Shown here: positions 9,322 through 51,767 of the stretch, piece after piece
Numbering within the stretch: position 1 is the first letter of the stretch
Layout: each line of letters starts with the position of its first letter
NCBI RefSeq assembly: GCF_002868715.1
Contig: NZ_PKLZ01000001.1
Span: 1-64,000, forward strand
Reading direction: 5' to 3'
DNA from: Kineobactrum sediminis
Lineage (GTDB): Bacteria; Pseudomonadota; Gammaproteobacteria; Pseudomonadales; Halieaceae
Length of the DNA stretch: 64,000 bases
Translations under genes and position numbers: made by a program
The notes under the pieces: generated by a model
What the model saw: the letters and a program-made list of their open reading frames with translations, nothing else
Told to the model about the DNA's origin: nothing
Databases searched by the model: none

Positions 9322-10227
9322 ATGGATATTACCATCAAACAGCTGCGGGCCTTTGTCGCGGTGGCACGCAGTCGCAGTTTTGCCGAGGCCTGCGGCCTGC
9401 TGAACCTGTCTCAGCCTGCCCTGAGTGTCACGATTCGCAACCTGGAAGAGGCCGTGGGTGGCCGCCTGCTGGCCCGAACTACCCGCACCCTGGCGCTGAC
9501 CCCCGAGGGCAGCCAGTTCCTGCCCGTGGCCCAGCGCCTGCTGGGAGACTGGAGTGCTGCCCTCGAGGACCTTCACGACACTTTTGCCCTGCGGCGGGGC
9601 AGGTTGGCGGTCGCCGCCATGCCCTCCTTCGCCAGTACCGAGCTGCCGGCGCTATTGCAGCAGTTTCGCAAGCTTTACCCGGAGATCAACATCACCGTGC
9701 ACGATGTGATCGCCGAGGATGTGGTCGCCATGGTACGCAGTGGTCGAGTGGAAACCGGCATCGCCTTCGACCCCGGCATGGCCGAAGATCTCCAGTTCAC
9801 CCCGCTGTTCAGCGACCGCTTTGTGGCTGCGCTACCCCCCGGTCATCCATTGCTGGCGCACCGCCAACTCCACTGGAGTGCCCTGGCCGACGAGCCCTTT
9901 ATCGCTCTGCAGCACCCTTCCAGTATCCGCTCATTGCTGGAGCAGTCCCTGGCTGCCAGTAATCTGGCATTGCGGGTCGAAGTGGAGACCAACCACCTCG
10001 TCACCATCGGGCGCATGGTGGCAGCCGGGCTTGGGATCAGCGCGGTACCCACGCTGTGCAAGCAACAGCTGCGCGAACTCGGTGTTCGTTCCCGCCCACT
10101 GACGGCACCGGTCATCGAACGCCGGGTCGGAATAGTCACCCGTCGCCGCTATCCTTTATCCGGACCAGCCAAAGCCCTGGTCACCATCCTTGATGCGCAC
10201 TATCGGGGGTCAGGTCTCGCATTGTAG
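9322..10227 (+). CDS. LysR-type transcriptional regulator of the CoA-transferase operon
   Basis: A 301-residue regulator with an N-terminal winged helix-turn-helix (residues about 1-60; TIKQLRAFVAVARSRSFAEA, then QPALSVTIRNLE) and a periplasmic-binding-protein-like effector domain (about 90-295). It is divergent from scoAB, and autoregulation plus control of scoAB is the natural inference. The last residues (GSGLAL) and the TAG stop are read from a copy of the repeat that covers 10205-10232, so the original C-terminus was probably altered by insertion of that repeat. The core domains are intact and the protein is likely functional. Confidence 0.9.
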   Translation: MDITIKQLRAFVAVARSRSFAEACGLLNLSQPALSVTIRNLEEAVGGRLLARTTRTLALTPEGSQFLPVAQRLLGDWSAALEDLHDTFALRRGRLAVAAMPSFASTELPALLQQFRKLYPEINITVHDVIAEDVVAMVRSGRVETGIAFDPGMAEDLQFTPLFSDRFVAALPPGHPLLAHRQLHWSALADEPFIALQHPSSIRSLLEQSLAASNLALRVEVETNHLVTIGRMVAAGLGISAVPTLCKQQLRELGVRSRPLTAPVIERRVGIVTRRRYPLSGPAKALVTILDAHYRGSGLAL

Positions 10228-10368
10228 CATTTGGTGGTGAGGCTTAAAGGGCTGGGGTCAGGTCTCGCATTGTTGCATGCGCCCCAATGGGCGCATGCAA
10301 CAATGCGAGACCTGACCCCAGCCATCCACCTTGTACGGCCAAATGCTACAATGCGAGACCTGACCCCC
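10205..10368. repeat. Nested palindromic repeat cluster (four related copies)
   Basis: Two nested perfect inverted repeats. The outer pair is 10205-10232 and 10341-10368 (28 bases each, exact reverse complements). The inner pair is 10253-10284 and 10289-10320 (32 bases each, exact, with the four-base loop caat). All four arms share the core ggggtcaggtctcgcattg. A further copy of the core lies at 25784-25808. Such clusters resemble REP elements mobilised by tyrosine (RAYT/Y1) transposases, but no transposase gene is in the window, so that origin is inference. Confidence 0.9.
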
Positions 10369-10415
10369 TACACTGGCGTAGAATACGGCGCCCAACATTT
10401 TACAGCTGAGTTGTT

Positions 10416-12296
10416 ATGCCCTTACTGCGCCTCGAATCCATCCAATTGCACTATGGCACCCAGGTGCTGCTGGACAGTGTGGACCTCACTATCCGCAAAG
10501 GTGAGCGCTGGGGGCTGCTCGGGCGCAATGGTACGGGCAAGACCACCCTGCTGAAAATTCTGGATGGCGAATTGCAGCCGGATGCAGGGGAGCGCTGGTT
10601 GCGCCCGGGCGTGCGCATTGCGCGGTTGCAACAGACCCTGCCGGATGCGGATGACAGCAGCGTTTATGACGTGGTCGCCGAAGGCCTGGCCGAGGCCGGC
10701 AAGCTGCTGGCGGAATACCACCATCTGCTGCAGGACCCCGATCTCGACTTCGACCGCCTGGCGCGCGTGCAGCAGCAACTCGAGGCCGCCGACGGCTGGA
10801 CCCTGCAGCAGCGAGTTGAAACCACCATCACCCAGCTACAGTTACCCCAGGACGCCAGGATGGGCGAGCTCTCGGGTGGCTGGCGCCGCCGCGTCGCGCT
10901 GGCCCAGGCATTGGTGGCAGACCCCGATATACTGTTGCTGGACGAGCCCACCAACCATCTCGATATTCCCGCCATTGTCTGGCTGGAAAGCCAGCTGCAG
11001 CAATTTCGCGGTGCTATCGTGCTCATCACCCACGACCGCCGCTTCCTGCAGAACGTCGCCACCAGTATTGCCGAGCTTGATCGTGGCCACCTCACCACGT
11101 GGGAAGGCAGTTACCAGGGTTTCCTGAACCACCGGGAGCAGGAACTGGTGGCGGAAGAACGCGCCAACGCCCTGTTCGACAAAAAACTGGCCCAGGAAGA
11201 GGTGTGGATTCGCCAGGGCATCAAGGCCCGGCGCACCCGCAACGAAGGTCGGGTGCGCGCGCTGGAGTCCATGCGCAATGACCGCCAGCAGCGCCGGGAA
11301 AAAGTCGGCACCGCCAAATTCAATATCGAGGAGGCCAGTCGCTCCGGTAAAATCGTGGCAGAGCTGGAGCACGTCAGTAAGCATTTTGACGGCAAACAGG
11401 TGATCAACGATTTCTCCACCATCATCCAGCGCGGCGATCGTGTGGGTATTGTCGGCGCCAACGGCGCCGGCAAATCAACCCTGGTTAAACTCATCCTGGG
11501 GCAGCTGGAGCCCGACAGTGGGGTCATAAAACTCGGCACCAAACTGGAAGTGGCCTATTCCGACCAGCTGCGCGGTAAACTCGAGCCCGAGCTGAACCTG
11601 ATCGACAATATATGCGGCGGCCAGGAGTTCATCGAGATCAACGGCAAGCGGCGCCATGCCATTTCCTACCTCGGGGATTTCCTGTTCAGCCCGGAACGAG
11701 TGCGCACCCCGGTCAAGGCGCTGTCGGGCGGGGAACAGAACCGGGCCATTCTGGCGCGCCTGTTCAGCAAGCCGGCCAACCTGCTGGTGCTGGACGAACC
11801 CACCAATGACCTTGATATCGAAACCCTGGAACTACTGGAAGATATTTTGCTGTCCTTTGACGGCACTGTAATCCTGGTCAGTCACGATCGCGACTTCATG
11901 GATCATGTGGTTACCCAAACCCTGATCATGCGCGGCGATGGCACTGTGGAAGAACAGGCCGGCGGTTACACGGACTGGGAAGCCCGGGGTGGCCGGCTGA
12001 CGGATCCAAACAGCCGCGGCCAGCAAATGCCGGCGACAAGCACGACTGCAACCACCGCTGCCGTACCCAAGGCTCCGCGCAAACGCTCCTACAAGGAACA
12101 GCGCGAACTGGATACCCTGCCCGGGCGCATCGAAGCGCTGGAGCTGGCCCAGTCAGAGCTGGAAGCGGCCGCGGCGGACCCGACCTTTTACCAACAGGAT
12201 CGGGACACGATCGACAGGGTACTGGCGGACCTGCTGACCGTACAGGCTGAGCTTGAGGCAGCTATCGAGCGCTGGGCAGAACTGGAAGAGGACTGA
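10416..12296 (+). CDS. uup: ABC-F ATPase Uup
   Basis: A soluble protein of 626 residues with two ABC ATPase domains and no membrane segments. The first has Walker A GRNGTGKTT near residue 37 and signature LSGGWRRRVALAQAL; the second has GANGAGKST near residue 348 and signature LSGGEQNRAILAR. The linker contains the Arg/Lys-rich ABC-F region. The C-terminal 80 residues form a charged coiled coil (from KRSYKEQRELDTLPGRIEAL) typical of Uup, which binds branched DNA and affects precise transposon excision and ribosome function. It starts 48 bases after the palindromic repeat cluster. Confidence 0.93.
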   Translation: MPLLRLESIQLHYGTQVLLDSVDLTIRKGERWGLLGRNGTGKTTLLKILDGELQPDAGERWLRPGVRIARLQQTLPDADDSSVYDVVAEGLAEAGKLLAEYHHLLQDPDLDFDRLARVQQQLEAADGWTLQQRVETTITQLQLPQDARMGELSGGWRRRVALAQALVADPDILLLDEPTNHLDIPAIVWLESQLQQFRGAIVLITHDRRFLQNVATSIAELDRGHLTTWEGSYQGFLNHREQELVAEERANALFDKKLAQEEVWIRQGIKARRTRNEGRVRALESMRNDRQQRREKVGTAKFNIEEASRSGKIVAELEHVSKHFDGKQVINDFSTIIQRGDRVGIVGANGAGKSTLVKLILGQLEPDSGVIKLGTKLEVAYSDQLRGKLEPELNLIDNICGGQEFIEINGKRRHAISYLGDFLFSPERVRTPVKALSGGEQNRAILARLFSKPANLLVLDEPTNDLDIETLELLEDILLSFDGTVILVSHDRDFMDHVVTQTLIMRGDGTVEEQAGGYTDWEARGGRLTDPNSRGQQMPATSTTATTAAVPKAPRKRSYKEQRELDTLPGRIEALELAQSELEAAAADPTFYQQDRDTIDRVLADLLTVQAELEAAIERWAELEED

Positions 12297-12338
12297 CCGC
12301 AGGGCATACCTGACCGCTGCACTCAGTGGCCGCGACAG

Positions 12339-13532
12339 TTAGCCGCGCAGTACCGCACCTACCGCCTCCGCCAGGTAATCGATGTTGGCGCCGTTGACGC
12401 CGGCGACATTGATGCGCGAAGACTCCAGCATGTAAATGCTGTGTTTCTCGCGCAGGGCAATGGCCTCCGCCCTGGTCAGCCCCAGAAACGAAAACATGCC
12501 TTTCTCACGCTCGATAAAGCCAAAGTCGCGATCGGTATTCTGTTCCAGCTTGCTCACCAGGCTGGTGCGCAACCCGTTAATGCGCCAGCACATGGCCTGC
12601 AACTCGTCTTCCCAGTTGGTCTTGAGTTCGGCATCCGCCAACACCCTGCCCGCGAGCAGGGCACCGTGGGCAGGCGGCATCGAATAGATCCGACGCGCCG
12701 CCACCTGGGCCTGGCTCAGCAGCGCGCGAGCATTTTCGGCGCTGGACGAAACAAACAGGGCAGCGCCAGTGCGCTCCCGGTACAAGCCCATATTCTTGGA
12801 ACACGACGCGGCAATAATCACCTCAGGCAGGCGTTCCACCAACAGCCGCAAGCCGGCAACGTCCTGCTCCAGGCCATCGCCCAGCCCCTGGTAGGCAATA
12901 TCCACAAACGGCATAAAACCCTGGCGCTCGGCCATATCCGCTATGACTGACCACTGCTCGAGAGTGAGGTCGGCACCACAGGGATTGTGGCAGCAGCCGT
13001 GCAACAGCACCACATCGCCACGCCCGGCCCGACCCAGGTCCTCCACCATGCCATCAAAATTAACACCATGGCTGACCGGCTCGTAATAGCGGTAGGTTTC
13101 AAACCTGAGACCAACACTGCCCAGTAGCGGAATATGTACCGGCCAGGTGGGGTCGGACACCCACACCCGGGCGCCCGGTGCCGCGGCGTTGATGATCTCG
13201 GCGCCAATGCGCAAGGCACCACAGCCGCCCGGTGTCTGGATGCTGCTCACCCTGGCATCCGCCAGTGCGGCGCTACCGGAACCCAGCACCAGTCGTTGCA
13301 AACCCTGATTGAAAGCGGCGTCACCGGCAGGTGCCATGTAGGCCTTGGTCGTCTCCTCGGCCACCAGCGACTGCTGCGCCAGGCGCACGGCATCAAATAC
13401 GGGGCATACGCCCTCCTCGTTCATGTAAATGCCGACTGTCAGGTCAATCTTGTTGGGGCTGGGGTCTGAGCGACACGCTGAAGACAGGCCGAGTATCGAA
13501 TCTTCAGGCATTTGGGGTAGTACATCGAGCAT
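12339..13532 (-). CDS. Class I aminotransferase (aspartate/aromatic type)
   Basis: A PLP enzyme of about 397 residues, of the AspC/TyrB group that swaps amino groups between aspartate or aromatic amino acids and 2-oxoglutarate. The PLP lysine is in SCSKNMGLYRERTGA; HNPCG and DIAYQG are the other cofactor motifs. The ATG at 13532 is chosen because GAGGA lies eight bases before it and overlaps the stop of the permease gene; an in-frame GTG at 13547 overlaps that stop directly. It is probably co-transcribed with the purine permease. Substrate preference cannot be settled by eye. Confidence 0.9.
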   Translation of the reverse strand: MLDVLPQMPEDSILGLSSACRSDPSPNKIDLTVGIYMNEEGVCPVFDAVRLAQQSLVAEETTKAYMAPAGDAAFNQGLQRLVLGSGSAALADARVSSIQTPGGCGALRIGAEIINAAAPGARVWVSDPTWPVHIPLLGSVGLRFETYRYYEPVSHGVNFDGMVEDLGRAGRGDVVLLHGCCHNPCGADLTLEQWSVIADMAERQGFMPFVDIAYQGLGDGLEQDVAGLRLLVERLPEVIIAASCSKNMGLYRERTGAALFVSSSAENARALLSQAQVAARRIYSMPPAHGALLAGRVLADAELKTNWEDELQAMCWRINGLRTSLVSKLEQNTDRDFGFIEREKGMFSFLGLTRAEAIALREKHSIYMLESSRINVAGVNGANIDYLAEAVGAVLRG

Positions 13533-13543
13533 CAGGAGGGTCC

Positions 13544-14863
13544 TCACATAAAGGCAAATTTGGCAATAAAGATCAGCGCCAGAAACCAGGCGCCGAAAGA
13601 AATATCAGTGTGGCGGCCAACACCCAGCTTGATAGCGACGAAGCTGATAAAGCCGATCGCGATGCCGTTGGCAATGGAAAATGACAGTGGGATCATCACC
13701 ACCGTGACCAGCGCCGGTATGACTTCACTCATGTCGTGCCAGTGCAGCTGCTGCAAATTGGTCAGCATCAGCATGGCCACATAAATGAGTGCCCCGGCGG
13801 TGGCAAAGGCAGGCACCATTCCAGCCAGGGGCGCGAAGAAAATAGCCAGCAGGAACAACGAGCCCACCGTTACCGCGGTAAGGCCGGTGCGCCCCCCCGT
13901 GGCCACGCCCGCGGCACTTTCAACATAGCTGGTAACAGGTGCGCAGCCAAGAAAGGCCCCGAATACGCTGGAGGTGCTGTCCGCCTTCAGCGCGCGGTCC
14001 AGGTTGTGGATTTTGCCGTCGCTATCGACTAGCCCGGCGCGGTTCGCCACGCCGAGCAAGGTGCCGGCCGTATCAAACAGGTTGACGAACAGGAACGCAA
14101 TAATCACGCTGGTCATTGCCACATCCAGGGCACCAACAATGTCCAGTTGCATGAAGGTGGGCGCCATACTCGGCGGGGCCGCCACCAGCCCATTATATTC
14201 CACCAATCCCGACAGCAGGCCCAGGCCGGTAACACTGAGAATCCCGATGATAATGGCACCGGGCACATTGCGAAGGGACAAAATGGCGATCACCAGAAAA
14301 CCCAGCGCCGCCAGGAATGGCTGTGGCTGGGCAATGTTGCCGAGGGTCAGCAGGGTCGCGTCACTGGCAACAATAATACCGCCGCTTTTCAGGCCAATAA
14401 AGCCGATAAAAAGGCCCACCCCCGCCCCCATCGCCAGGCGCAGGTTGAAAGGAATGCTGTCGAGCATCCAGCGCCGGATACGGGTTACGCTCATGATCAC
14501 AAACAGGATACCTGCCAGGAACACGGCGCCCAGCCCGACTTCCCAGCTGTATCCCATATCCCCGACGACGGTATAGGTAAAGAACGCATTGAGCCCCATA
14601 CCCGGCGCCAGCCCCACCGGCCAGTTGGCGTAAAAACCCATCAGGTAACAAGCCAGTGCGGACGCCAGACAGGTGGCCACGAAAGAGGCCTGGTAATCCA
14701 TACCGGCAGCCGCCATCATCTGTGGATTGACAAAGATAATGTAGGCCATGGTGACAAAGGTCGTGGCGCCGGCTATCAGCTCAGTGCGCACATCCGTGTC
14801 GTGGCGGGATAATTTGAAAAGACGCTCCAGGGGACCCGTAACGGATTGCTCAGTTTGCTCCAC
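13544..14863 (-). CDS. NCS2 (AzgA-type) purine permease
   Basis: A proton-coupled inner-membrane permease for adenine, guanine or hypoxanthine, with about 12-14 hydrophobic segments. Visible family features are ATTFVTMAYIIFVNPQ in the first helix, the segment GLAPGMGLNAFFTY, the segment ESAAGVATGGRTGL, and LFDTAGTLLGVANRAG, which point to the AzgA/PbuG branch rather than uracil/xanthine carriers. The likely start is the GTG at 14863 (AAGGA upstream), giving 439 residues; the frame continues to an ATG at 14938 but that extension is unlike the family. It is divergent from a purine phosphoribosyltransferase gene, which supports a salvage role. Confidence 0.9.
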   Translation of the reverse strand: MEQTEQSVTGPLERLFKLSRHDTDVRTELIAGATTFVTMAYIIFVNPQMMAAAGMDYQASFVATCLASALACYLMGFYANWPVGLAPGMGLNAFFTYTVVGDMGYSWEVGLGAVFLAGILFVIMSVTRIRRWMLDSIPFNLRLAMGAGVGLFIGFIGLKSGGIIVASDATLLTLGNIAQPQPFLAALGFLVIAILSLRNVPGAIIIGILSVTGLGLLSGLVEYNGLVAAPPSMAPTFMQLDIVGALDVAMTSVIIAFLFVNLFDTAGTLLGVANRAGLVDSDGKIHNLDRALKADSTSSVFGAFLGCAPVTSYVESAAGVATGGRTGLTAVTVGSLFLLAIFFAPLAGMVPAFATAGALIYVAMLMLTNLQQLHWHDMSEVIPALVTVVMIPLSFSIANGIAIGFISFVAIKLGVGRHTDISFGAWFLALIFIAKFAFM

Positions 14864-15008
14864 GTGCGCTGATGTCCTTCTGCAGGCTTTGTCATTAATT
14901 CGCCAGTTTACGCAATCAGCGCGAGCGGCACCATACACCCGTCAACTGCAAGCTGTGCTAATCTGCGCGACCTATCGGCAAACAGTACCTATCAAGGACC
15001 CGCGGCAC

Positions 15009-15584
15009 ATGCACAAGCACTACATCAGCGCCCAGCAGTTACTGGAAGACTCCTTCAAACTGGCCTGGAAAGTCTATGAAAGCGGCTACCGCCCCGATTA
15101 TATCGTCGGGGTCTGGCGCGGCGGCGCGCCGGTAGGCATCGCAGTACAGGAATTGCTGGAGGTACTGGGCGTGGAAGCAGACCATATCGCCATCCGCACC
15201 TCATCCTACACCGGCATAGGCCAACGCAGCCGTCATGTGAAAGTGCACGGCCTGACCTACCTGATCAAGCGACTGGAGGCGGAGGACGCACTGCTGATCG
15301 TGGACGACGTACACGACTCCGGACTATCGATCGACCAGACCATTCGCGACCTGAAGGATGCCTGCAAGAAGAATACGCCGGAGATCCGCATTGCCACACC
15401 CTATTACAAGCCGGGCAATAACCGGACAGAGCGGGTGCCGGACTACTACGTTCACGAAACCGCTGACTGGCTGGTGTTTCCCCATGAATTGCAGGGCCTT
15501 ACCGCCGAAGAAATTCGTGACTACAAGCCTGAGCTTGCCAGTTTTGTAGATCGGCTCACCGAACACCTCAAAGCCGGTACCTGA
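15009..15584 (+). CDS. Hypoxanthine/guanine phosphoribosyltransferase
   Basis: A cytoplasmic purine salvage enzyme of 191 residues that converts a free purine base plus PRPP to the nucleotide. The PRPP-binding motif LLIVDDVHDSG is intact, and GVWRGGAPVG matches the N-terminal PRTase loop. The ATG at 15009 follows AAGGA at 14994-14998. The gene is divergent from the purine permease, so uptake and trapping of bases are probably controlled together in the 145-base gap between them. Base preference between hypoxanthine, guanine and xanthine is not certain. Confidence 0.88.
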   Translation: MHKHYISAQQLLEDSFKLAWKVYESGYRPDYIVGVWRGGAPVGIAVQELLEVLGVEADHIAIRTSSYTGIGQRSRHVKVHGLTYLIKRLEAEDALLIVDDVHDSGLSIDQTIRDLKDACKKNTPEIRIATPYYKPGNNRTERVPDYYVHETADWLVFPHELQGLTAEEIRDYKPELASFVDRLTEHLKAGT

Positions 15585-15607
15585 ACCACCCTGCCCCGCC
15601 CACGAAT

Positions 15608-16192
15608 TCAGTGGTCGCGGGTGAAGGCCTTGATTTCTGCCGCATGTTCGGGAAATTCGGCGAGCAGATCGTCGCGCTCGCCCAGTGCCATATCCGCATA
15701 ATCAAACCCTGGCGCCACCGCCTCGCTGATCAGGCCGTAACTGCCGGCGGGAAGATGCGATGCCTTCCAGACACCACCGCGCACCGTCAGCTGCAACCGC
15801 TGCCCCGCCGCCAGGTCCGGGCCCAGCACGGCAGTTTCCAGGCGACCGTCGGGATGCAGCAGGTAGTAGTGAACCGGGGCACCCAGGTGATAAAAGTGAA
15901 CAATGTCCGACTGGTTACGGTGCCAGTGGCCAACAGGAGAATCATCGGTCAGCAGATAGTGGATGGAAGTCATCGTGTAGCGTTCACCTGCCGGCGTTGC
16001 CACTTTCGGCCTGTGGTCAGGCTGAAAGGTCCGCGCAAAATAACCACCTTCCACATGAGCCTCCAGCCCCAGCGTTGCAATGATCTCGGTTTTATCGGGC
16101 ACTGCCATATTAACCGTCTCCCCTGCCTGCAACGGGTTGCCGGCTATCACCGCAAGCCCGCTCGCCATGGCAATAATTGATTGCCTCATCAT
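15608..16192 (-). CDS. Secreted cupin, DUF985 (Cupin_5) family
   Basis: A 194-residue protein with an N-terminal signal peptide (cleavage plausible after NPLQA, about residue 23) followed by a single cupin domain. Metal-type histidines are seen in GHWHRNQSDIVHFYHLG, and the family start EGGYFARTF is present. DUF985 members are small beta-barrel proteins of uncertain function. The ATG overlaps the stop of the amidohydrolase gene (ATGA), so the two are probably translationally coupled and act in the same compartment. A signal peptide on this family is worth noting, since many members are predicted cytoplasmic. Confidence 0.8.
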   Translation of the reverse strand: MMRQSIIAMASGLAVIAGNPLQAGETVNMAVPDKTEIIATLGLEAHVEGGYFARTFQPDHRPKVATPAGERYTMTSIHYLLTDDSPVGHWHRNQSDIVHFYHLGAPVHYYLLHPDGRLETAVLGPDLAAGQRLQLTVRGGVWKASHLPAGSYGLISEAVAPGFDYADMALGERDDLLAEFPEHAAEIKAFTRDH

Positions 16193-17604
16193 TCATTCTC
16201 CTGTTGCTCGTCGAGGGCACGACGAATAGCGTTACTGGCCTTGTGCACCGACGCTCTCAGGGCCGACTCATCCAGGGTCAGCACTTCACGATCCTGCATC
16301 AGCACCTGCCCCGCCACAATTGTCGTCTGCACGTTCTCGCTTCCCAGTACATACACCAGATGGGAACTCACATCGTATAACGGCAGCTGATGAGTGCGGG
16401 TCACGTCAAGCTGGATCATGTCCGCCTGCATTCCCACCTGAAGACGACCGATCCGGTCCCCCATATGAATGGCGGCGGCACCCAGCCGGGTGGCCATCGC
16501 CAGGGCTTGCCCGGCAGGCAGCGCGGTCGGATCGCCACTGGCCATCTTGTGCAGTAACGCCGCCATGCGGATTTCATCCCACATGTCGAGATCATTGTTG
16601 GAGGCTGCACCGTCCGTTCCCAGGCCGACATTCACGCCAGCCGCCAACATCGCCGGCACCGGAGAAACACCGGCCCCCAACTTCATGTTCGATGTGGGGT
16701 TGTGCACTGCGCCCACCCTCGCGGCGGCCGTAAGGGCGATATCTTCGGCGTCCAGCTGCACCATGTGGGCGGCGATCAGACGCGTATCATACAAACCCAG
16801 CCCGGCCACATGACGTACCGGGGTGGTGGCAAAATTCTCTTCAATATAAGCACTTTCCGCTGGCGCCTCCGCCAGGTGCATTGATATCACTGCGTCCATC
16901 GCCAGGGCTTTTTCCACGGTGGCCTGCAAGTGGGCAGGAGCCACCGTGTACGGCGCGTGCGGGGCAAATGCCGGGGTGATGCGCGGATGCCTGTCCTGCC
17001 AGCGACTGACAAAATCCGTCGCCGCGGCAAAGGAGTCCTCCCAACCGGCAAAGCCGGGGCTGGGATAATCAATATGGGGTGACGCCACTACTGCACGCAG
17101 ACCGCAACGATCAACTACCCCCGCAATTTCATCAGGATAGAAATACATGTCGACAAAAGTGGTGGTACCACCGCGAATCATTTCCCAGCAGGCGAGCTCA
17201 GTGCCGGTGCGCACGAATTCCGGCGTTACGAATCGTGCCTCCATGGGGAATACATAGTGATTCAGCCAGGTCATCAGGTCCAGGTCATCAACCATGCCGC
17301 GGAACAGGGTCATGGCGGTATGGGTATGGCCGTTGATCAGTCCCGGCAGCAGCACGCGGCCATCGCCCGGGATGGTGCGAGCCGCGTTGTACTGGCGGTC
17401 AATATCGGCCCTCGGTCCCAGCGCCACAATGCGGTCACCGCGCACTACAACAGCAGCATCGCGCAGTTCCGGCTGCTCCGGATTCATGGTTAGCACATAG
17501 TCTGCATACACGATCAAATCTGCAGAGGACCCGGCGCTGGCCGCAACCACCCCGGACCAGAAAACCCAGAGGGCAAAAAATCCTCCCGTCACTATTTTTA
17601 TCAC
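16189..17604 (-). CDS. Secreted amidohydrolase, SAH/MTA/adenosine deaminase-like
   Basis: A 471-residue metal-dependent hydrolase of the TrzA/MtaD group, which deaminates S-adenosylhomocysteine, methylthioadenosine or adenosine. Metal and substrate motifs are GLINGHTHTAMTLFRGM (HxH), MHLAEAP, AHMVQLD, HNPTSNMKLGAG and GLGTDGAASNN. The start is the GTG at 17604 with a strong GGAGGGGAG site; the frame stays open to 17823 but that extension lacks a site. From the GTG the protein opens with a convincing signal peptide (about residues 1-25, ending near VAASAG), so it should be periplasmic, unusual for this family. It is divergent from a TonB receptor operon carrying nucleoside genes. Confidence 0.85.
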   Translation of the reverse strand: MIKIVTGGFFALWVFWSGVVAASAGSSADLIVYADYVLTMNPEQPELRDAAVVVRGDRIVALGPRADIDRQYNAARTIPGDGRVLLPGLINGHTHTAMTLFRGMVDDLDLMTWLNHYVFPMEARFVTPEFVRTGTELACWEMIRGGTTTFVDMYFYPDEIAGVVDRCGLRAVVASPHIDYPSPGFAGWEDSFAAATDFVSRWQDRHPRITPAFAPHAPYTVAPAHLQATVEKALAMDAVISMHLAEAPAESAYIEENFATTPVRHVAGLGLYDTRLIAAHMVQLDAEDIALTAAARVGAVHNPTSNMKLGAGVSPVPAMLAAGVNVGLGTDGAASNNDLDMWDEIRMAALLHKMASGDPTALPAGQALAMATRLGAAAIHMGDRIGRLQVGMQADMIQLDVTRTHQLPLYDVSSHLVYVLGSENVQTTIVAGQVLMQDREVLTLDESALRASVHKASNAIRRALDEQQENE

Positions 17605-17853
17605 AAGCAATCTCCCCTCCTGGGTTAACCGGGCGCAATTATAACCACAGCTCGAGCGCGATGGGCGACGAGATGCCAGGGAATCCTGTGGCCGAATTCT
17701 GGTACTTTTGCCGCACGGGGCTGCGACATCCTCGAAACCCGTGTAAATTCTGCGCCCTTGAGCCGTCAAAGGCCAGCTGCAGGCAGAGTACCTGCTACGC
17801 GCATCGCAAGATTCCGTGACCATTAGGCTAGCAATTCACCAGGAGATACATCC

Positions 17854-20010
17854 ATGAAGAGGATAACCGTACCCCGGTTGGCCCTGACCACCGCCATTGT
17901 CGCAACACTTGGCACTGCAGCACCTGCGATCGCACAGTTGGAAGAAGTCATCGTGACCGCGCAAAAGCGCGAACAGAGCTTGCTGGACGTTCCTCTTTCC
18001 GTCGCCACACTTTCCGGCGAGCGCTTGTCCGCCATTTTTGAAGGCGGCGCCGACATCCGCGGCCTGTCCGCACGTGTACCCGGCTTGTATGTAGAATCAT
18101 CCAACGGCCGCGTGGCACCGCGTTTTTATATCCGCGGCCTGGGCAATATTGATTTTGACCTGGCAGCTTCCCAGCCCGTGTCCATCATCATGGACGAAGT
18201 GGTCAAGGAAAATGTCGTACTCAAGAGCTTCCCCCTGTTTGATATTGAACAGGTAGAAGTACTGCGCGGCCCACAGGGCTCACTGTTTGGCCGCAACACC
18301 ACGGCGGGAATCATCAAGTTTGATTCCCGCAAACCGACACAGGAGTTTGAGGGTCGGGCCAAGGTTGATATTGGCGAGCTGGACACCTTCAACTTCGAGG
18401 GTGCCGTGGGCGGCGGCCTCACCGACACACTGGCCGGCCGTATTGCCGTGCTCCACCAAAACCGGGGTGACTGGATCGACAACGACTTCACCGGCGAGAA
18501 CGACGCGCTGGGCGGTTTTACTGAAAAAGCAGTGAAAGGCTTCCTGCTGTACGAGCCCAACGACCGCTTCAGCGCCCTGCTTGGTGCCCATCACCGGGAC
18601 CTGGACGGCACCGCCGCCGTATTCCGGGCAAACATTTTCACCCCCGGCACCAATAATCTTAACGAAAACTACGATCGCGAGACGGTGTTCTTTGACGAGG
18701 GCGACAACAACCCACAGAAATATCGCAATACCGGGGTTAACCTGAAGCTGCAGTATGACTTTGACGCTGTAACACTAACCTCCATCACCGCGTGGGAGGA
18801 TGCCGAGGGCAGCAGCCTGGGCGATATCGACGGCGGTTTTGGCGCCTCCTTCCTGCCTTTCATGGGCCCCGGCTTCATCCCCTTCCCGTCCCAGACCCAG
18901 GACTCGGCCGATGTACGCCAGATAACCCAGGAGTTTCGTTTGTCCACCAATGCCGGCGAGCGCCTGAACTGGCAGGTGGGTATGTTCTTTTTCGATGGCA
19001 CGCTGGATGTGGAGACCAATCCGTTCTTTATCCCGCCCACCACGGTAGAACATGAGAACACTTCCTTTGCGTTATTCGGCCAGGCTGATTACGCCCTCAC
19101 CGATGCCTGGACGGTAACCGCCGGCCTGCGCTGGACCGATGACGACAAGGATTTTGCTGCACCCAACGGTATCAGCGAATCGGTCTCCGATGACCAGATG
19201 AGCGGCGACCTTGCAGTCTCCTATGCCGCCAACGACACCTCAACATACTGGGCCAAGGTAGGTACCGGCTTCCGCGCACCCTCCATCCAGGGCCGCGATG
19301 TCGCCTTCGGTGCGGCGCCGTCCATTGCCGATTCCGAAACCATCAATTCCATCGAGGTGGGCTACAAGGCCGAATACATGAATAACCGCGTACGCCTGAA
19401 CGCGGCACTGTTCTACTACGAAGTCGACGACATCCAGTTTACTGCTGTCGGTGGTGCGGCTAACTTTATCCAGCTGGTCAATGCCAACCAGGGTACCGGC
19501 CAGGGCCTGGAACTGGACCTTGAATGGATGATCTCGGACAACCTGACCGTCACCCTGGGTGGCGCCTATGCGGATACCGAAATCAACGACCGCGAACTGC
19601 GCGTCGGCGCCTGCGCCGCCTGCACCATCAACAATCCGGTAGATGCGGACAACCGGGTGCTGGTCGACGGCAACCCATTCCCGAATGCGCCGGAAACCAC
19701 TTTCAACTTCACCGCGTCCTACAGTATTCCCGTAGGTCGTGAATCTGAACTCTTCGCCTTCACTGACTGGGCCTACCAGGGTGACACCCAGTTCTTCCTC
19801 TACGATGCAGCGGAGTTCAAGACCGACGGCCAGTTTGAAGGCGGCTTGCGGGTGGGCTGGCGCCTGCGTGACGGCAGCATGGAAGCGGCACTGTTCGGTC
19901 GCAATATTACCGATGAGGAAAACGTGCAGGGTGCCATCGATTTCAACAACCTGACCGGGTTCACCAACGAACCGCGGGTTTTCGGCCTGTCGCTGTCCCG
20001 CCTGTTCTAG
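17854..20010 (+). CDS. TonB-dependent outer-membrane receptor
   Basis: A 718-residue outer-membrane gated channel with a signal peptide (cleavage near IAQ, about residue 27). A TonB box-like stretch (EEVIVTAQKR) follows, then a plug domain (VEVLRGPQGSLFGRNTTAGI) and a 22-strand-type barrel ending in a terminal Phe (LSLSRLF). AGGAG precedes the ATG. It is first in an apparent operon with ribokinase and a NUP-family nucleoside protein, so nucleosides or nucleic acid fragments are the likely cargo rather than iron complexes; that is inference from context. The 249-base gap to the divergent amidohydrolase should hold both promoters. Confidence 0.9.
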   Translation: MKRITVPRLALTTAIVATLGTAAPAIAQLEEVIVTAQKREQSLLDVPLSVATLSGERLSAIFEGGADIRGLSARVPGLYVESSNGRVAPRFYIRGLGNIDFDLAASQPVSIIMDEVVKENVVLKSFPLFDIEQVEVLRGPQGSLFGRNTTAGIIKFDSRKPTQEFEGRAKVDIGELDTFNFEGAVGGGLTDTLAGRIAVLHQNRGDWIDNDFTGENDALGGFTEKAVKGFLLYEPNDRFSALLGAHHRDLDGTAAVFRANIFTPGTNNLNENYDRETVFFDEGDNNPQKYRNTGVNLKLQYDFDAVTLTSITAWEDAEGSSLGDIDGGFGASFLPFMGPGFIPFPSQTQDSADVRQITQEFRLSTNAGERLNWQVGMFFFDGTLDVETNPFFIPPTTVEHENTSFALFGQADYALTDAWTVTAGLRWTDDDKDFAAPNGISESVSDDQMSGDLAVSYAANDTSTYWAKVGTGFRAPSIQGRDVAFGAAPSIADSETINSIEVGYKAEYMNNRVRLNAALFYYEVDDIQFTAVGGAANFIQLVNANQGTGQGLELDLEWMISDNLTVTLGGAYADTEINDRELRVGACAACTINNPVDADNRVLVDGNPFPNAPETTFNFTASYSIPVGRESELFAFTDWAYQGDTQFFLYDAAEFKTDGQFEGGLRVGWRLRDGSMEAALFGRNITDEENVQGAIDFNNLTGFTNEPRVFGLSLSRLF

Positions 20011-20020
20011 AGCCGGTATT

Positions 20021-20968
20021 GTGAGCAGGCTGGTAGTCGTCGGTTCCAGCAACACCGACATGGTTATCCAGGTGCCGCACTTGCCGGGGCCAGGTGAAAC
20101 TGTGCTGGGTGGCCGTTTTACCACCGCGCAAGGGGGTAAGGGTGGCAACCAGGCGGTAGCTGCCGCGCGCGCCGGTGGCGATGTCAGCCTGGTGGCCTGC
20201 GTTGGCAATGATACCTTTGGCGAGCAGGCCCTGGCCGGGTTCGCAGCCAGCGGTATCAATACGGGGTACTGTGTTGTCGACCCACAGGCACCTTCCGGTG
20301 TGGCCCAGATTGTGGTGGATGCGCATGGGGAGAACAGTATCGCTGTAGCCCCCGGCGCTAATGCCTGCCTGCTGTCACGCCATATTGACGCGGCCGGCCG
20401 TTTGCTGGAAAAGGCGACCGTCGTGCTCCTGCAACTGGAAACACCTGTTACCACGGTACTGGCCGCCGCGCGCCTGGCGGCCGGGGCAGATGCCGTGGTA
20501 ATCCTCAACCCGGCACCGGCGCAATTACTGCCCGACGAACTCTATCCGCTGATTAACGTCATTACGCCCAACGAAACTGAAACGAGATTACTGACTGGCA
20601 TTCAGGTATGCGATGATGCCTCGGCTGCTACCGCTGCGGACTGGCTGCACCTGCGCGGTGTCGACACCGTACTGATCACCCGGGGTGCCCTGGGGGTCTT
20701 TTCATCCCAGCATTCGAGCTCAGCCGAACCTGTGCGCAGCGCCCGGGCGGGGTTTAAGGTTGAAGCCGTAGATACCACTGCAGCCGGGGATGTTTTCAAC
20801 GGCTGCCTGGCGGCAGCCCTGACCGAAGGCCAGGACCTGCAGCAGGCAATCCGCTTTGCCCAGGCGGCCGCCGCACTTTCAGTAACGACACCCGGGGCAC
20901 AAGCCAGTGCACCTTCCCGGACTGCGATAGACGATTTCCTTGCCCAACGAACCGTGGATACCCATTGA
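20021..20968 (+). CDS. rbsK: Ribokinase
   Basis: A PfkB-family sugar kinase of 315 residues that phosphorylates ribose at O5. The N-terminal motif GGKGGNQAVAAARAGG and the C-terminal motif DTTAAGDVFNGCLAAAL, with the catalytic Asp, are intact. The start is the GTG at 20021, ten bases after the TonB receptor gene. The stop overlaps the ATG of the NUP gene (TGATG). Since no ribose ABC transporter is nearby, its ribose may come from cleavage of nucleosides by the neighbouring proteins. A related deoxyribose or nucleoside kinase activity is possible. Confidence 0.9.
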   Translation: MSRLVVVGSSNTDMVIQVPHLPGPGETVLGGRFTTAQGGKGGNQAVAAARAGGDVSLVACVGNDTFGEQALAGFAASGINTGYCVVDPQAPSGVAQIVVDAHGENSIAVAPGANACLLSRHIDAAGRLLEKATVVLLQLETPVTTVLAAARLAAGADAVVILNPAPAQLLPDELYPLINVITPNETETRLLTGIQVCDDASAATAADWLHLRGVDTVLITRGALGVFSSQHSSSAEPVRSARAGFKVEAVDTTAAGDVFNGCLAAALTEGQDLQQAIRFAQAAAALSVTTPGAQASAPSRTAIDDFLAQRTVDTH

Positions 20969-22053
20969 TGAAACTTATGAACTCTGCCCTGCTCACCCTG
21001 CTATGCACGCTGCTGACATTGCCCGCGCTTGCCGCCGGCGAAAATGATTCCGTGGCGGGCATCATTAGCCCCATACCAGTCAAGGTCGTCATAGTCACCA
21101 TGTTCGAAACCGGCGAGGACAGCGGCGACGACGCCGGTGAATTCCAGCGCTGGTACGAGCGGATACCACTGGACACCCCTTTTCCCGCACCACACATGCA
21201 TCACGACCTGCATATGAATCTGGAATCCGGCGTACTGGGCGTTGTTACCGGGATGGGCACCGCCAATGCCGCGGCCAGCATTATGGCCCTTGGCCTTGAT
21301 CCGCGCTTCGACCTGACCAAAGCCTACTGGCTGGTCGCAGGCATTTCCGGGTTCGACCCGGCGGATGCCTCGCTGGGCTCTGTTGCCTGGGCCGAGTATC
21401 TGGTGGATGGCGATCTCGCGCACGAAATTGATAGTCGCGAAATCCCCGATGACTGGGACACAGGCTATTTCCCCCTGTTCAGCCAGGGGCCGGGCGACCC
21501 CGCGCGCAAGAGTTACAACCTGGGCGAGGTATTCCAGCTAGACAGCAAACTGGTAAACTGGGCCTTTGAGCTGACCAAAGGCATGGAACTGCCGGATCAC
21601 CCAACCCTGGAGGACACCCGCAAGCTCTATGTTAATTATCCGGTTGCGCAGCGTACCCCCTTTGTACTCAAGGGCGACCAGCTGGCCGCGATGACCTTCT
21701 GGCACGGCACTTTGCTGAATGACTGGGCCAATGACTGGGTGGACTACTGGACCGACGGCAAGGGCGAGTTTGTCAGTTCGGCAATGGAGGACACCGGCAC
21801 GTTCCAGTCCCTGAGCTATCTGCACGCCGGCGGCAAGGTTGACAAAAACCGCGTGCTGGTACTGCGGACCGCCTCCAACTTCACTCTGCCGCCACCCGGC
21901 AAGGGTGCTGCTGAATACCTGCAGGAGGAGCAGCACGACAGCTATGCTGGCCTGGACGCCGCACTGGAGAACGCTTACCTGGTTGGCAGCAAGGTCATTG
22001 AGGCCCTGCTCAAGAACTGGGACCAGTACGAGAACACACCTCCCGCGCGGTAA
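20968..22053 (+). CDS. Secreted NUP-family purine nucleoside protein
   Basis: A 361-residue protein of the family named for the Candida purine nucleoside permease, whose fold is related to nucleoside phosphorylases. A signal peptide (about residues 1-22, ending in LPALA) is followed by one globular domain with no further membrane helices, so it is a soluble periplasmic protein, not a classical permease. Family-type stretches include PVKVVIVTMFETGEDSGD, VTGMGTANAAASIMALG and VLRTASNF. The partner ribokinase suggests that it releases ribose (nucleosidase activity) rather than ribose 1-phosphate; that is inference. Its ATG overlaps the ribokinase stop. Confidence 0.85.
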   Translation: MKLMNSALLTLLCTLLTLPALAAGENDSVAGIISPIPVKVVIVTMFETGEDSGDDAGEFQRWYERIPLDTPFPAPHMHHDLHMNLESGVLGVVTGMGTANAAASIMALGLDPRFDLTKAYWLVAGISGFDPADASLGSVAWAEYLVDGDLAHEIDSREIPDDWDTGYFPLFSQGPGDPARKSYNLGEVFQLDSKLVNWAFELTKGMELPDHPTLEDTRKLYVNYPVAQRTPFVLKGDQLAAMTFWHGTLLNDWANDWVDYWTDGKGEFVSSAMEDTGTFQSLSYLHAGGKVDKNRVLVLRTASNFTLPPPGKGAAEYLQEEQHDSYAGLDAALENAYLVGSKVIEALLKNWDQYENTPPAR

Positions 22054-46583: not shown

Positions 46584-48461
46584 ATGCGTTACCTGACCAG
46601 ATCATTCACCTGTTCCGCCCTCCTGCTTTTTCTTCTGGGAGGCTGTACCGCCAATACACCTGCAATAGCAGCAGACCATTTCGAACTTACCCTCCTGCAT
46701 ATCAACGACCACCACTCTCACCTTGAGCCGACTCGCCTGGCAATCAACATCGGCAGCGCGGATCTCGACGTTGACCAGGTCGCAATAGAGTATGGCGGCT
46801 TTGCCCTGCTGGCCGCGGCCTTCAGGCAACTCACTGCAGAGGCACCCAATGTACTCAAGCTGCATGCCGGGGATGCCGTCAGCGGCACGGCCTATTACAG
46901 CCTGCTAAAGGGCGTTGCCGATGCAGCCCTGATGAACACCATCTGCTTTGATGCCTTTACTACGGGTAACCACGAGTTCGACAATGGCGATGCCGGCCTC
47001 GCACACTTTATTGACGCCCTCATGGCCAGCGATTGCGCAACGCCGGTGCTGGCCGCCAATGTGATACCAGGGCCAGTATCGCCCTTGCGTAACGGCTATC
47101 TGCAGCCCTACACCATTGTCGAGCGCAGCGGGGAACGGATCGGCATTGTAGGTATCAACATAGCCGGCAAAACCCGCAACTCGTCCCGGCCTGACCCCCA
47201 GACCCGGTTACTGGACGAACAGGCATCAGCGCAGCGCTATATTGATGAGATTTCCCGGCAGGGAGTAAACAAGATCGTACTGCTGACCCATCTCGGCTAT
47301 CGCAACGATATGGCCCTGGCCGGGGCACTGCGTAATGTTGATGTGATTGTGGGCGGCGACTCCCACACCCTGCTGGGTCCCCAAAGTCTCACCCGGCTGG
47401 GGTTGAAGCCAGTGGCAGACTACCCGGCGCGCACCACCGATGCCCTGGGACAACCGGTGTGCGTGGTCCAGGCATGGGAGTATGGCCGTCTGCTGGGCAA
47501 GCTCAGTATCGGGTTTGATGAACAGGGTGTGGTGACCGGATGCACTGGCGGCCCGGTACTACCCTTCACCGGCGACTATTACTATCGCGATACAGGCGGA
47601 CAGGAACGCACGCTGGACGCTGCGACGGCGGCACAAGTCACCGCTGCGCTGAAATCCGAACCGGCATTGGCAGTAGCACCAGACCCCGCCGCTGGCGCAC
47701 TTGTCGGTGGCTTTCAGGCCCAGCTGGGCCTACTGGGTGAGCAGCTTATCGGCCACACCCGGGATCACCTGTGTCGGGAATACCTTCCAGGGCAGGGCCG
47801 CTCATTATTGTGCGCCACTGCAGACACATGGCTTCACGGCAGCGACATGGCACAACTGGTCGCTCGCAGCTTTCTCGCCGCCACCCCCACCGCAGATATT
47901 GCGCTGCAGAATGCGGGTGGCGTACGCAGTGACCTCGCTGCTGGTGCCATCAGCGTGGCCGACGTATTCAGTGTACTGCCCTTTAACAATACGCTGGTTA
48001 CTCTCGAGCTGACCGGCGCCGAAGTTGCCGCGGTTATCGAGGAAGCGGTAGCGCAGTCACTCGACAATCCCGCCACCAGTGGCGCCTACCCCTATGCGTC
48101 TGGCCTGCGCTTCCATGTCGATGCTTCAAGAACTGCCGGCAACCGGGTATCAGGGCTGGAAGTGAATGCGGGGCTGAATCGGCAGTGGCTGCCACTTGAG
48201 GCAACGCAGCGTTACCGTGTGGTGACCAATGATTTTATTGCCTCGGGTAAGGATGGCTACCATACACTTGGTCAAAAGTACGACAACAATCAGTACACGG
48301 ATACCTTCACTGAATACGCACAGGCTTTTATCACTTACACAAGCGCGCTTTATGAGATCGGTAAATCACTGTCAAAGCCTGTCTATAGCGAATATTCCAC
48401 CCAGTCCTTCATCAATCGAGCAGGGTGCGAGCATCGTTACACCCAAAACTGTAGCGATTGA
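46584..48461 (+). CDS. Lipoprotein 5'-nucleotidase (metallophosphatase)
   Basis: A 625-residue secreted phosphatase of the UshA/NadN group that dephosphorylates extracellular nucleotides. The signal sequence has a lipobox (LLGGC), so it is a lipoprotein. The metallophosphatase domain carries HINDHHSHLEP, GDAVSG, TTGNHEFDNG, LLTHLGYRND and VGGDSHTLLG; the C-terminal nucleotide-binding domain carries NAGGVRSDLAAGAIS and VLPFNNTLVTLELTG. It lies before an Oar-like TonB receptor and a secreted endonuclease/phosphatase, which suggests joint use of nucleic-acid phosphate. Confidence 0.93.
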   Translation: MRYLTRSFTCSALLLFLLGGCTANTPAIAADHFELTLLHINDHHSHLEPTRLAINIGSADLDVDQVAIEYGGFALLAAAFRQLTAEAPNVLKLHAGDAVSGTAYYSLLKGVADAALMNTICFDAFTTGNHEFDNGDAGLAHFIDALMASDCATPVLAANVIPGPVSPLRNGYLQPYTIVERSGERIGIVGINIAGKTRNSSRPDPQTRLLDEQASAQRYIDEISRQGVNKIVLLTHLGYRNDMALAGALRNVDVIVGGDSHTLLGPQSLTRLGLKPVADYPARTTDALGQPVCVVQAWEYGRLLGKLSIGFDEQGVVTGCTGGPVLPFTGDYYYRDTGGQERTLDAATAAQVTAALKSEPALAVAPDPAAGALVGGFQAQLGLLGEQLIGHTRDHLCREYLPGQGRSLLCATADTWLHGSDMAQLVARSFLAATPTADIALQNAGGVRSDLAAGAISVADVFSVLPFNNTLVTLELTGAEVAAVIEEAVAQSLDNPATSGAYPYASGLRFHVDASRTAGNRVSGLEVNAGLNRQWLPLEATQRYRVVTNDFIASGKDGYHTLGQKYDNNQYTDTFTEYAQAFITYTSALYEIGKSLSKPVYSEYSTQSFINRAGCEHRYTQNCSD

Positions 48462-48471
48462 TTGACCGCAA

Positions 48472-48490
48472 CGGTCATAAATCTTACTCA
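48472..48490 (+). promoter_or_regulatory. Candidate Pho box before the Oar-like receptor
   Basis: The stretch cggtcataaatcttactca in the 100-base gap resembles the PhoB consensus (CTGTCATAAA then a second CTGTCA-like half), with a good first half and a poor second half. Neighbouring genes act on phosphate compounds, which raises the prior. The match is by eye only. Confidence 0.3.
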
Positions 48491-48561
48491 CGGTCGCAAC
48501 ATACCTGTAACACATCAGCTCTAGCCTCACCCCCGGTTTTTAATTCTCTGGGGAAATAATC

Positions 48562-51500: not shown

Positions 51501-51702
51501 AGAGAACCTGGGCAACCTGCTCAACGACGACTGGGGCGTGATGAACGAGGCCAGCTTTCCCCGCTCGCAACAGTTGGTGGACGCGTCTATCAATGACCAG
51601 GGGCAGTATGTGTTTGAGCGTTTCTTCGAGCCGGCACAGCAAAGTCGGGTTGCCAGCGCTTCCCTGTGGCAGGTGCGTATCGGCGTAAGCTACGACTTCT
51701 AA
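48562..51702 (+). CDS. Oar-like TonB-dependent receptor with carboxypeptidase-regulatory N-domain
   Basis: A 1046-residue outer-membrane receptor. After a signal peptide (to about residue 29, ALAQ) there is a CarboxypepD-regulatory-like domain (about 30-110; SAIRGSVTTAAGELVPGAKV), then a plug (about 120-250) and a large barrel ending in Phe (VRIGVSYDF). This architecture is that of Oar/SusC-like receptors for large ligands. No SusD partner is present. The preceding 5'-nucleotidase and following endonuclease/phosphatase point to nucleic-acid fragments or organophosphates as ligand, by context only. A rho-independent terminator follows the gene. Confidence 0.9.
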   Translation: MALLSTRKQLALAVAMTIGLSASALAQETSSAIRGSVTTAAGELVPGAKVTVLDNRTGATRELTAGTTGSFSLRGLQVGGPYTITVRDTTGTSTLEDVYLNLGETANITISLDGQRAMESVLVTASRDAAGTYGAMGPTANFNLNDLESAPAVNRDIKDLIRIDPRVYIDEAFADSIQCAGANSRFNSLTVDGIRTNDNFGLNSNGYPTVRMPFSYDAISQVSVELAPFDVQYGGFTACNINAVTKSGDNEFSGSVFYDYTDDSLRGDTLEGDDILVGEFEEKRYGFNVGGPLIADKLFFFTAYEKLEGASLFDRGPSDSNAAVPVLGFSQAQSDEIIDIARNLYNYEPGELVSSLPVEDEKILARLDWQINDYHRASFIYNYNDGNVIRQSDGDADEFEFSNHYYDQSGELESYVASVFSDWSDTFSTELRIGTSDFEASVDPLGGTEFGEVQITTENNGSEATVYLGADDSRHANKLKYTTDTFKLAGTWVAGDHVITGGFEFEELDVFNLFVQEAEGEYRFDSIDDFRAGTPSRIIYENASGSNNPNDGAAEFSYRTNTAYLQDEYYHAGLNASLTFGVRYDWYTSSDKPVENPLIEELYGFSNQQNLDGKDLLQPRVGFNWGVNDDLEVRGGFGLYSGGNPNVWIGNNYQNNGIILQEVQDRSGTSVFDMPFTGEGRPVYDVPQDLFDAVARGEGRLGGINVLDPDFDIPSEWKYALGFTYTLPMDYIVMGDLLHSEKKDAAIIRDLTRVPSGATAPDGRPIYTSANGRSQDFMLTNVSGDSGQSTTLSMALSKSHDFGLDWTLAYAYTQAEDVNPMTSSVAFSNYANAAVADSENPGAATSNYEVPHRFTLRMSYARDFVPGYSTRFTLFGSANEGRPYSYVFNGDLGGALGSSIGFIDQNLVYIPTANDPLVVYADGFDKAAFDALVSSEELSRGSIMDRNSINSDWWVKFDLKVEQEVPGFMAEHRGKAFVVVENLGNLLNDDWGVMNEASFPRSQQLVDASINDQGQYVFERFFEPAQQSRVASASLWQVRIGVSYDF

Positions 51703-51724
51703 ACCGTAGCGCATGGAACAGTTG

Positions 51725-51749
51725 AAGCCGGCCATGTGCCGGCTTTTTT
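51725..51749 (+). terminator. Rho-independent terminator after the Oar-like receptor
   Basis: A perfect 8-bp stem aagccggc / gccggctt with a five-base loop (catgt), running into six T residues. It lies 22 bases past the receptor stop and 19 bases before the next gene. Confidence 0.85.
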
Positions 51750-51767
51750 ATCGAGGATAAATTCACG

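Follow-up and report, generated by a model that had tools for sequence, protein, structure and literature searches.

A probable purine-nucleoside utilization locus acting outside the cytoplasm in Kineobactrum sediminis, and the likely nature of its NUP protein

We analyzed a window of 64,000 nucleotides from Kineobactrum sediminis (Halieaceae; contig NZ_PKLZ01000001.1, positions 1 to 64,000), and within it a group of genes between 12339 and 22053 that includes a member of PF06516 (COG5042), the NUP or “purine nucleoside permease” family. Sequence comparisons and a structural model suggest that this locus is probably a purine-nucleoside utilization system that degrades its substrate outside the cytoplasm, with NUP acting as the nucleosidase. 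A broader proposal, which we favor slightly, is that the family is misnamed: in Proteobacteria, PF06516/COG5042 proteins would be purine nucleosidases that are exported and owe a preference for 6-oxopurine nucleosides to an asparagine in the base pocket. They would work outside the cytoplasm in a line of purine catabolism fed by TonB receptors, together with a deaminase and a Cupin_5 protein that are likewise exported, the deaminase having been recruited from different families on at least two occasions.

In the proposed pathway, nucleosides would enter through the TonB receptor, and the exported amidohydrolase would deaminate adenosine to inosine, as its family, motifs and context suggest. 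NUP would then hydrolyze inosine, and probably guanosine, to the base and free ribose, a role for which its fold, active-site residues, fusions and context argue. The base would be imported by the NCS2 permease and converted to a nucleotide by the phosphoribosyltransferase, and ribose would be imported separately (by a PF07168-like permease in relatives, possibly by an RbsBAC-like ATP-binding cassette (ABC) transporter here) and passed to ribokinase. The Cupin_5 protein would be an exported accessory. The components of the locus are the following.

12339-13547, minus strand: aromatic-amino-acid transaminase, overlapping the permease gene by 4 bp
13544-14938, minus strand: NCS2/AzgA-like purine base permease (PF00860, 143 bits above cut-off; ten hydrophobic segments)
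15009-15584, plus strand: purine phosphoribosyltransferase, cytoplasmic (PF00156 above cut-off; ATG at 15009)
15608-16192, minus strand: exported Cupin_5 (DUF985) protein (PF06172, 153.7 bits against a cut-off of 25)
16189-17604, minus strand: exported amidohydrolase (PF01979; nearest to methylthioadenosine/adenosylhomocysteine (MTA/SAH) deaminases; GTG start)
17605-17853: divergent intergenic region, 249 bp between the amidohydrolase and receptor genes
17854-20010, plus strand: TonB-dependent outer-membrane receptor (PF07715 plug, PF00593 barrel)
20021-20968, plus strand: ribokinase, cytoplasmic (NF008353, 354.9 bits, cut-off 341; TIGR02152, 327.7, cut-off 299.65)
20965-22053, plus strand: exported PF06516 (NUP) protein (394 bits against a cut-off of 27)

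The AlphaFold model of NUP (337 residues, built with 49 sequences; predicted local distance difference test, pLDDT, 91.4; predicted template-modeling score, pTM, 0.91) is a soluble alpha/beta protein, and hydrophobic 19-residue stretches are confined to residues 1-47. All 50 Foldseek matches and all 50 VIA-align matches listed for this model are MTA/SAH nucleosidases or futalosine hydrolases, the Foldseek set being the best 50 of 637 at E <= 0.001 and the VIA-align set having Z scores of 20.4 to 24.6. They include 4wkb (Z 24.6, root-mean-square deviation (rmsd) 2.4, 230 residues) and the periplasmic Aeromonas enzyme 5b7q (Z 24.3, rmsd 3.0, 234 residues aligned). At the level of sequence, PF01048 is not listed for NUP at E <= 0.001, the NCBIfam match to futalosine hydrolase is weak (E 8e-4, far under its cut-off), a phmmer search against the sequences of solved structures gave no match at E <= 1, and hhalign against a single E. 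coli MTAN or DeoD sequence gave nothing usable. NUP thus has a predicted fold in common with these enzymes, including the periplasmic Aeromonas structures 5b7p/5b7q, but is about 100 residues longer, has Asn in place of a pocket Asp, and stands in a context that points to plain purine nucleosides.

Given a soluble predicted fold that resembles those of nucleoside hydrolases, and given that relatives fuse NUP to a nucleoside hydrolase or to Cupin_5 (described below), NUP is very probably not a membrane permease. The view that it is a true permease or binding protein, with nucleosides taken up whole, seems to us barely credible, but it has the family name on its side, together with experiments in yeast. 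The presumed namesake of PF06516 is CaNUP of Candida albicans, and toyocamycin and its analogues, which figure in those experiments, are 7-deaza nucleosides. The report on CaNUP, a protein that we liken to the window NUP by name and not by sequence, describes it as a transporter that lets adenine-requiring yeast grow on adenosine without bringing sensitivity to toyocamycin and analogues, which its authors read as transport with narrow specificity (PMC9431476). Both the soluble model and the restriction of hydrophobic stretches to the first 47 residues argue otherwise for the window protein; moreover, splitting of adenosine to adenine outside the yeast cell would account for the growth just as well, and 7-deaza nucleosides should resist an N7-dependent enzyme.

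The gene order of the locus is repeated among relatives. Amidohydrolase, receptor and NUP genes stand on one contig in the same order at 22 relatives' loci (counts here and below are of genomes or loci, and only those given by genus allow for descent), and therefore the gene set reflects more than chance; named relatives include Haliea, Parahaliea, Halioglobus, Seongchinamella and Mangrovimicrobium. Cupin_5 is present at 20 of these 22 loci, the phosphoribosyltransferase at 17 and the NCS2 permease at 16, one locus (L044) being cut by a contig end. Ribokinase is the least constant member, with a close copy (at least 63% identity) at eight loci and a second type (38-39%) beside NUP at five. Across 145 genomes, the exported amidohydrolase (at least 66% identity) occurs in 26, the window genome included, and 24 of these 26 carry NUP, compared to 11 of the 119 genomes without the exported amidohydrolase; by genus, the co-occurrence is 9/11 vs. 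7/65 (p 4e-6). The receptor (at least 62% identity) is found in 25 of the 145 genomes, all but one of which (24/25) also carry NUP. At one locus counted as NUP-positive (L066; G070, about 9496-10444), the NUP match falls in three pieces and the gene may be broken. Elsewhere, the window genome itself encodes another receptor of this type (L088; G000:C39:173681-175810), 43% identical to the first.

A wider survey of NUP took in the best 80 of 338 relatives and therefore leans to close ones; at least three of its 60 loci (L127, L134 and L151) belong to the window's own family. At the 48 of these 60 with 5 kb on either side of NUP (12 were left out), a TonB receptor is present at 45, an exported-type deaminase at 38, and both at 35. 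The deaminase is a PF00962 enzyme of the adenosine-deaminase growth-factor (ADGF-like) type at 34 of the 48, with TIGR01431 as its best NCBIfam match, under the cut-off, and the receptor is often of a different type as well; PF00962 and amidohydrolase deaminases thus occupy the same place in the layout. Since NUP lies near a TonB receptor (45/48) and an exported-type deaminase (38/48), usually of another family than in the window, the combination of exported deaminase and exported NUP recurs across Gammaproteobacteria and Sphingomonadales. A preliminary description of the window had regarded this layout as uncommon, a view that has to be given up, and had also staked its reading on clustering in relatives, which is found both at the 22 loci and at the wider ones. 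The alternative that the genes are merely co-located, the receptor serving another nutrient and no joint pathway existing, could draw on receptor orthologues that sit in other contexts (L081-L083, discussed below); the recurrence of receptor, exported deaminase and NUP across lineages, with different receptor and deaminase families, makes it very improbable.

Gene fusions and longer clusters at other loci bear on the proposed pathway. In L054, positions 11878-14013 encode an exported protein in which NUP is joined to an inosine-uridine nucleoside hydrolase (by Pfam); an unfused NUP and an exported enzyme resembling adenosine deaminase are encoded next to it. L127, L134 and L151 resemble this NUP-hydrolase fusion in lengths and matches. 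NUP is fused to Cupin_5 in Paraglaciecola arctica (L155, 9139-10698), with a lipobox-like start ahead. One strand of L037 (1007-14201) carries NUP, a ribokinase-like kinase and an NCS2 permease, then purine-degradation genes (xanthine-dehydrogenase-type domains, an amidohydrolase, an allantoicase and a HIUase/transthyretin protein).

Export signals were called with a rule that considers charge, hydrophobic core and an AxA or lipobox motif, the best start codon being chosen. Among orthologues of the window proteins, a signal is predicted for 25/25 NUPs (six of them with a lipoprotein-like flag), 25/25 amidohydrolases and 21/21 Cupin_5 proteins. Control proteins scored 0/17 for ribokinase, 0/1 for cytoplasmic MtaD and 1/14 for the phosphoribosyltransferase, the single positive being the window protein read upstream of its start; five more phosphoribosyltransferases had no candidate start. 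At the 60 wider loci, the rule calls a signal for 60 of the 63 NUPs, for all 30 ADGF-like deaminases and for none of 59 cytoplasmic control proteins; these counts omit copies close to a contig end (two NUP, ten ADGF-like). Wider loci with an amidohydrolase of at least 50% identity have a signal in four of five cases (L142 is the exception), and an amidohydrolase relative in G020 (51%) has a lipoprotein-like signal. A cytoplasmic location of the amidohydrolase or NUP, which would be at odds with the preliminary description, is not indicated, both proteins carrying export signals by this rule.

We propose that the exported amidohydrolase is an adenosine (or broader adenine-nucleoside) deaminase, judging from its family, motifs and context. 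It has its subfamily in common with the cytoplasmic MTA/SAH deaminase (PRK09045, MtaD), as well as seven residues that presumably have metal and catalytic roles: H93, H95, E122, H243, E246, H280 and D331 (numbered from the GTG) are invariant in 25 exported sequences and are also found in cytoplasmic MtaD. Unlike MtaD, the window enzyme is exported, and it scores below the curated cut-off of the MtaD equivalog (NF006549, cut-off 540), reaching 474.7 vs. 647 for the cytoplasmic paralogue in the same genome, to which it is 40% identical; 83 of the 193 positions invariant in exported amidohydrolases differ from that cytoplasmic copy.

These affinities could also mean that the locus scavenges external nucleosides substituted at the 5' position (methylthioadenosine, adenosylhomocysteine, 5'-deoxyadenosine) instead of the ordinary purine ones, an alternative that we judge distinctly unlikely. 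The amidohydrolase is nearest to MTA/SAH deaminases, and the best fold matches of NUP are MTA/SAH nucleosidases, among them the periplasmic Aeromonas enzyme, whose existence is also noted in PMC6302742. However, ribokinase suits unmodified ribose, enzymes of the adenosine-deaminase family replace the amidohydrolase at other loci, the exported enzyme falls below the MtaD cut-off, and a cytoplasmic methylthioadenosine route is present separately. The latter comprises MtaD, encoded beside a methyltransferase gene (apparently ubiG-like), and a methylthioinosine phosphorylase, the only PF01048 protein in the window genome (321 vs. a cut-off of 223); together they are the ordinary methylthioadenosine route, separate from the locus.

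For ribose, the comparison with relatives suggests an importer that travels with ribokinase. Among 20 named Halieaceae loci, a PF07168-like gene directly precedes ribokinase or NUP in 12; a ribokinase of either kind is present at 12/12 loci with this gene vs. 2/8 without. The PF07168-like gene has a weak likeness to sugar transporters too, and it is also paired with ribokinase at three of three loci outside the Halieaceae (L139, L141 and L142). The window genome has no PF07168 match; on another of its contigs it encodes an RbsBAC-like ABC cassette (L186, 7365-10890), the NCBIfam scores of which are under all cut-offs shown. In Chromatocurvus halotolerans (L060/L127), orthologues of this cassette (61-79%) are neighbors of the NUP cluster.

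Several observations weigh against an extracytoplasmic pathway with NUP as its nucleosidase. At five of the 22 relatives' loci (L038, L039, L041, L050 and L066), the stretch fetched contains no NCS2 permease and no phosphoribosyltransferase, and nine of the 22 have no ribokinase match of any kind. The locus is patchy: G001, the one other genome from the genus of the window, has no NUP, no receptor and no close exported amidohydrolase. The substrate of the receptor is not fixed, because three receptor orthologues (L081, L082 and L083; 56-61%) sit in contexts without evident nucleoside genes nearby. The export calls come from a home-made rule that picks the best start codon and therefore leans towards finding signals. 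Of the pathway drawn in the preliminary description, comparative sequence evidence supports entry by the receptor, deamination and cleavage outside the cytoplasm, and recovery of base and ribose, but the ribose leg has no importer at the window locus. Searches of the window genome gave no match to CNT, PF00962 or PF01156, which speaks for the pathway, but MFS nucleoside symporters, nucleoside kinases and pyrimidine phosphorylases were not searched for. Lastly, the profile alignment of NUP with ten MTA/SAH nucleosidases (nine taken from a set of ten loci, plus E. coli) is colinear but statistically weak (E 0.047). In it, nucleosidase Asp197 is replaced by Asn in NUP (N305 in the window protein, numbered from the TTG at 20965; invariant 49/49), and E59, also invariant in 49/49, falls on nucleosidase Glu12 in a forced global alignment only.

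Glu12, Glu174 and Asp197 are catalytic residues of MTA/SAH nucleosidases; crystal-structure titles among the NUP fold matches name Glu12 and Asp197 mutants. The weak alignment places E275 of the window NUP, likewise invariant in 49/49, on Glu174. These counts come from 94 NUP stretches, 54 of which passed a redundancy filter, with 49 entering alignment A2 and 48 plus the window protein entering A3; a misframed minus-strand NUP (L121) was removed between the two. For purine nucleoside phosphorylases, PMC5074518 reports that Asn in the corresponding place of the pocket accompanies use of 6-oxopurine nucleosides (inosine, guanosine) and that exchange for Asp admits adenosine; a double mutant described in PMC2799393 bears on the same Asn/Asp specificity. 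The pocket Asn of NUP, as placed by the weak alignment, would fit a pathway that deaminates adenosine first. L062, the most distant NUP aligned, does not keep this Asn, which weighs against reading it so.

The phosphorylase precedent raises another alternative, in which the exported pathway is the same but NUP uses periplasmic phosphate to release ribose-1-phosphate, which a phosphatase would have to act on before import. Nucleoside phosphorylases belong to the wider fold family, and their absence from the 50 fold matches listed, the best of 637 at E <= 0.001, does not exclude them. Against this, hydrolases account for all 50 matches listed with either aligner, ribokinase travels with the PF07168-like permease gene, which suits free ribose, NUP is found fused to a hydrolase, and the glutamate that the forced alignment sets on Glu12 is invariant. 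We consider a phosphorylase unlikely, though we still give it some weight, and keep to NUP as a hydrolytic nucleosidase.

The model of the Cupin_5 protein (pLDDT 92.7) matches 1yud (Z 24.4, rmsd 1.4, 158 residues) and 3loi (BbDUF985, Z 22.4), the title of which names apo and GDP-bound forms. More distant matches (Z 11.8 to 13.3) are to sugar isomerases and to a cupin titled “with uridine” and are too weak to choose between them. In the exported set, the histidine-rich motif has isoleucine at the position where SO0799 has glutamate. The Cupin_5 (DUF985) family is not known to have an assigned activity; gene order and the fusion with NUP make the protein a probable partner in nucleoside or ribose handling.

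The locus differs from two established ways of using nucleosides. In the CNT route (NupC with a cytoplasmic phosphorylase or nucleoside hydrolase), nucleosides are imported whole, whereas the window locus would split them outside. By genome, CNT is present in 1/24 with exported amidohydrolase and NUP vs. 47/121 others (p 6e-4), the 47 including G067, a fragment under the curated cut-off; the idea that NUP replaces the CNT transporter was set aside, the comparison by genus (1/9 vs. 23/67, p 0.26) being suggestive only. In G038 and G041, which have receptor and amidohydrolase orthologues and no NUP, the neighborhood of the receptor contains CNT genes together with a gene of PF01048 or PF01156. 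No second NUP was found in the window genome. The Rus ribose-scavenging locus of Bacteroides thetaiotaomicron (BT2803-2809) is said to combine a SusC-type receptor, ribokinases and a secreted nucleoside hydrolase. The window receptor scores 46.8 on TIGR04056 against a cut-off of 368 and so is not of SusC type, and no SusD was found among nine window proteins scanned; the window locus, from an unrelated lineage, would also differ from Rus in splitting nucleosides with a PF06516 protein and in adding an exported deaminase and base salvage genes.

As to the arrangement of the window genes, the preliminary description had placed the receptor, ribokinase and signal-bearing NUP in one operon, facing a divergent pair for a secreted amidohydrolase and a secreted cupin, with an AzgA-type permease and a purine phosphoribosyltransferase adjoining, and this arrangement is borne out. 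The receptor and ribokinase genes are 10 bp apart and the ribokinase and NUP genes overlap by 4 bp, the three forming one operon; the amidohydrolase and Cupin_5 genes likewise overlap by 4 bp, and the intergenic region at 17605-17853 presumably holds the promoters of both divergent operons. The permease is matched by PF00860 but by no NCBIfam model that would place it in the AzgA subfamily, and its real start is probably further inside than that of the longest open reading frame. The best solved relative of the phosphoribosyltransferase is 1vdm, an entry named purine phosphoribosyltransferase. The amidohydrolase gene is best read from the GTG at 17604, preceded by AGGAGGGG, and not from the ATG at 17823 that begins the longest open reading frame. 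Downstream of NUP lies cmoB, on the opposite strand. The transaminase, included in the span of the preliminary description, is a bystander outside the pathway, because relatives place another gene between it and the permease: this is so at all five loci inspected that have both (L033, L034, L035, L040 and L048), and in L034, the sole one scanned, the intervening gene is an M20-family peptidase by Pfam.

Elsewhere in the window there is one further gene related to nucleosides.

46584-48461, plus strand: lipoprotein-like 5'-nucleotidase (PF02872, PF00149)

It is followed on the same strand, up to 53033, by genes for a TonB-plug outer-membrane protein and a signal-bearing Exo_endo_phos protein. 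The genes at 46584-53033 could supply nucleosides to the locus; the 5'-nucleotidase, tied to it in this genome by proximity only, is 49% identical to one that follows NUP in Mangrovimicrobium sediminis (L050).

In the literature searched, the coverage of which leaves out most subscription papers, we found no link between nucleoside breakdown and either NUP or this gene set, and the likely nature of NUP is the new point here. If the family is indeed misnamed, this would explain why yeast with CaNUP can use adenosine and yet stays insensitive to 7-deaza nucleosides. COG5042 has been counted among transporters for dissolved organic carbon in at least one survey (PMC2847192); such figures would reflect another process if nucleosides are in fact split by NUP outside the cytoplasm. 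Free bases and ribose could then leak to neighbors, and toxic nucleoside analogues need not enter the cell whole. The locus would also provide a first functional setting for the Cupin_5 (DUF985) family.

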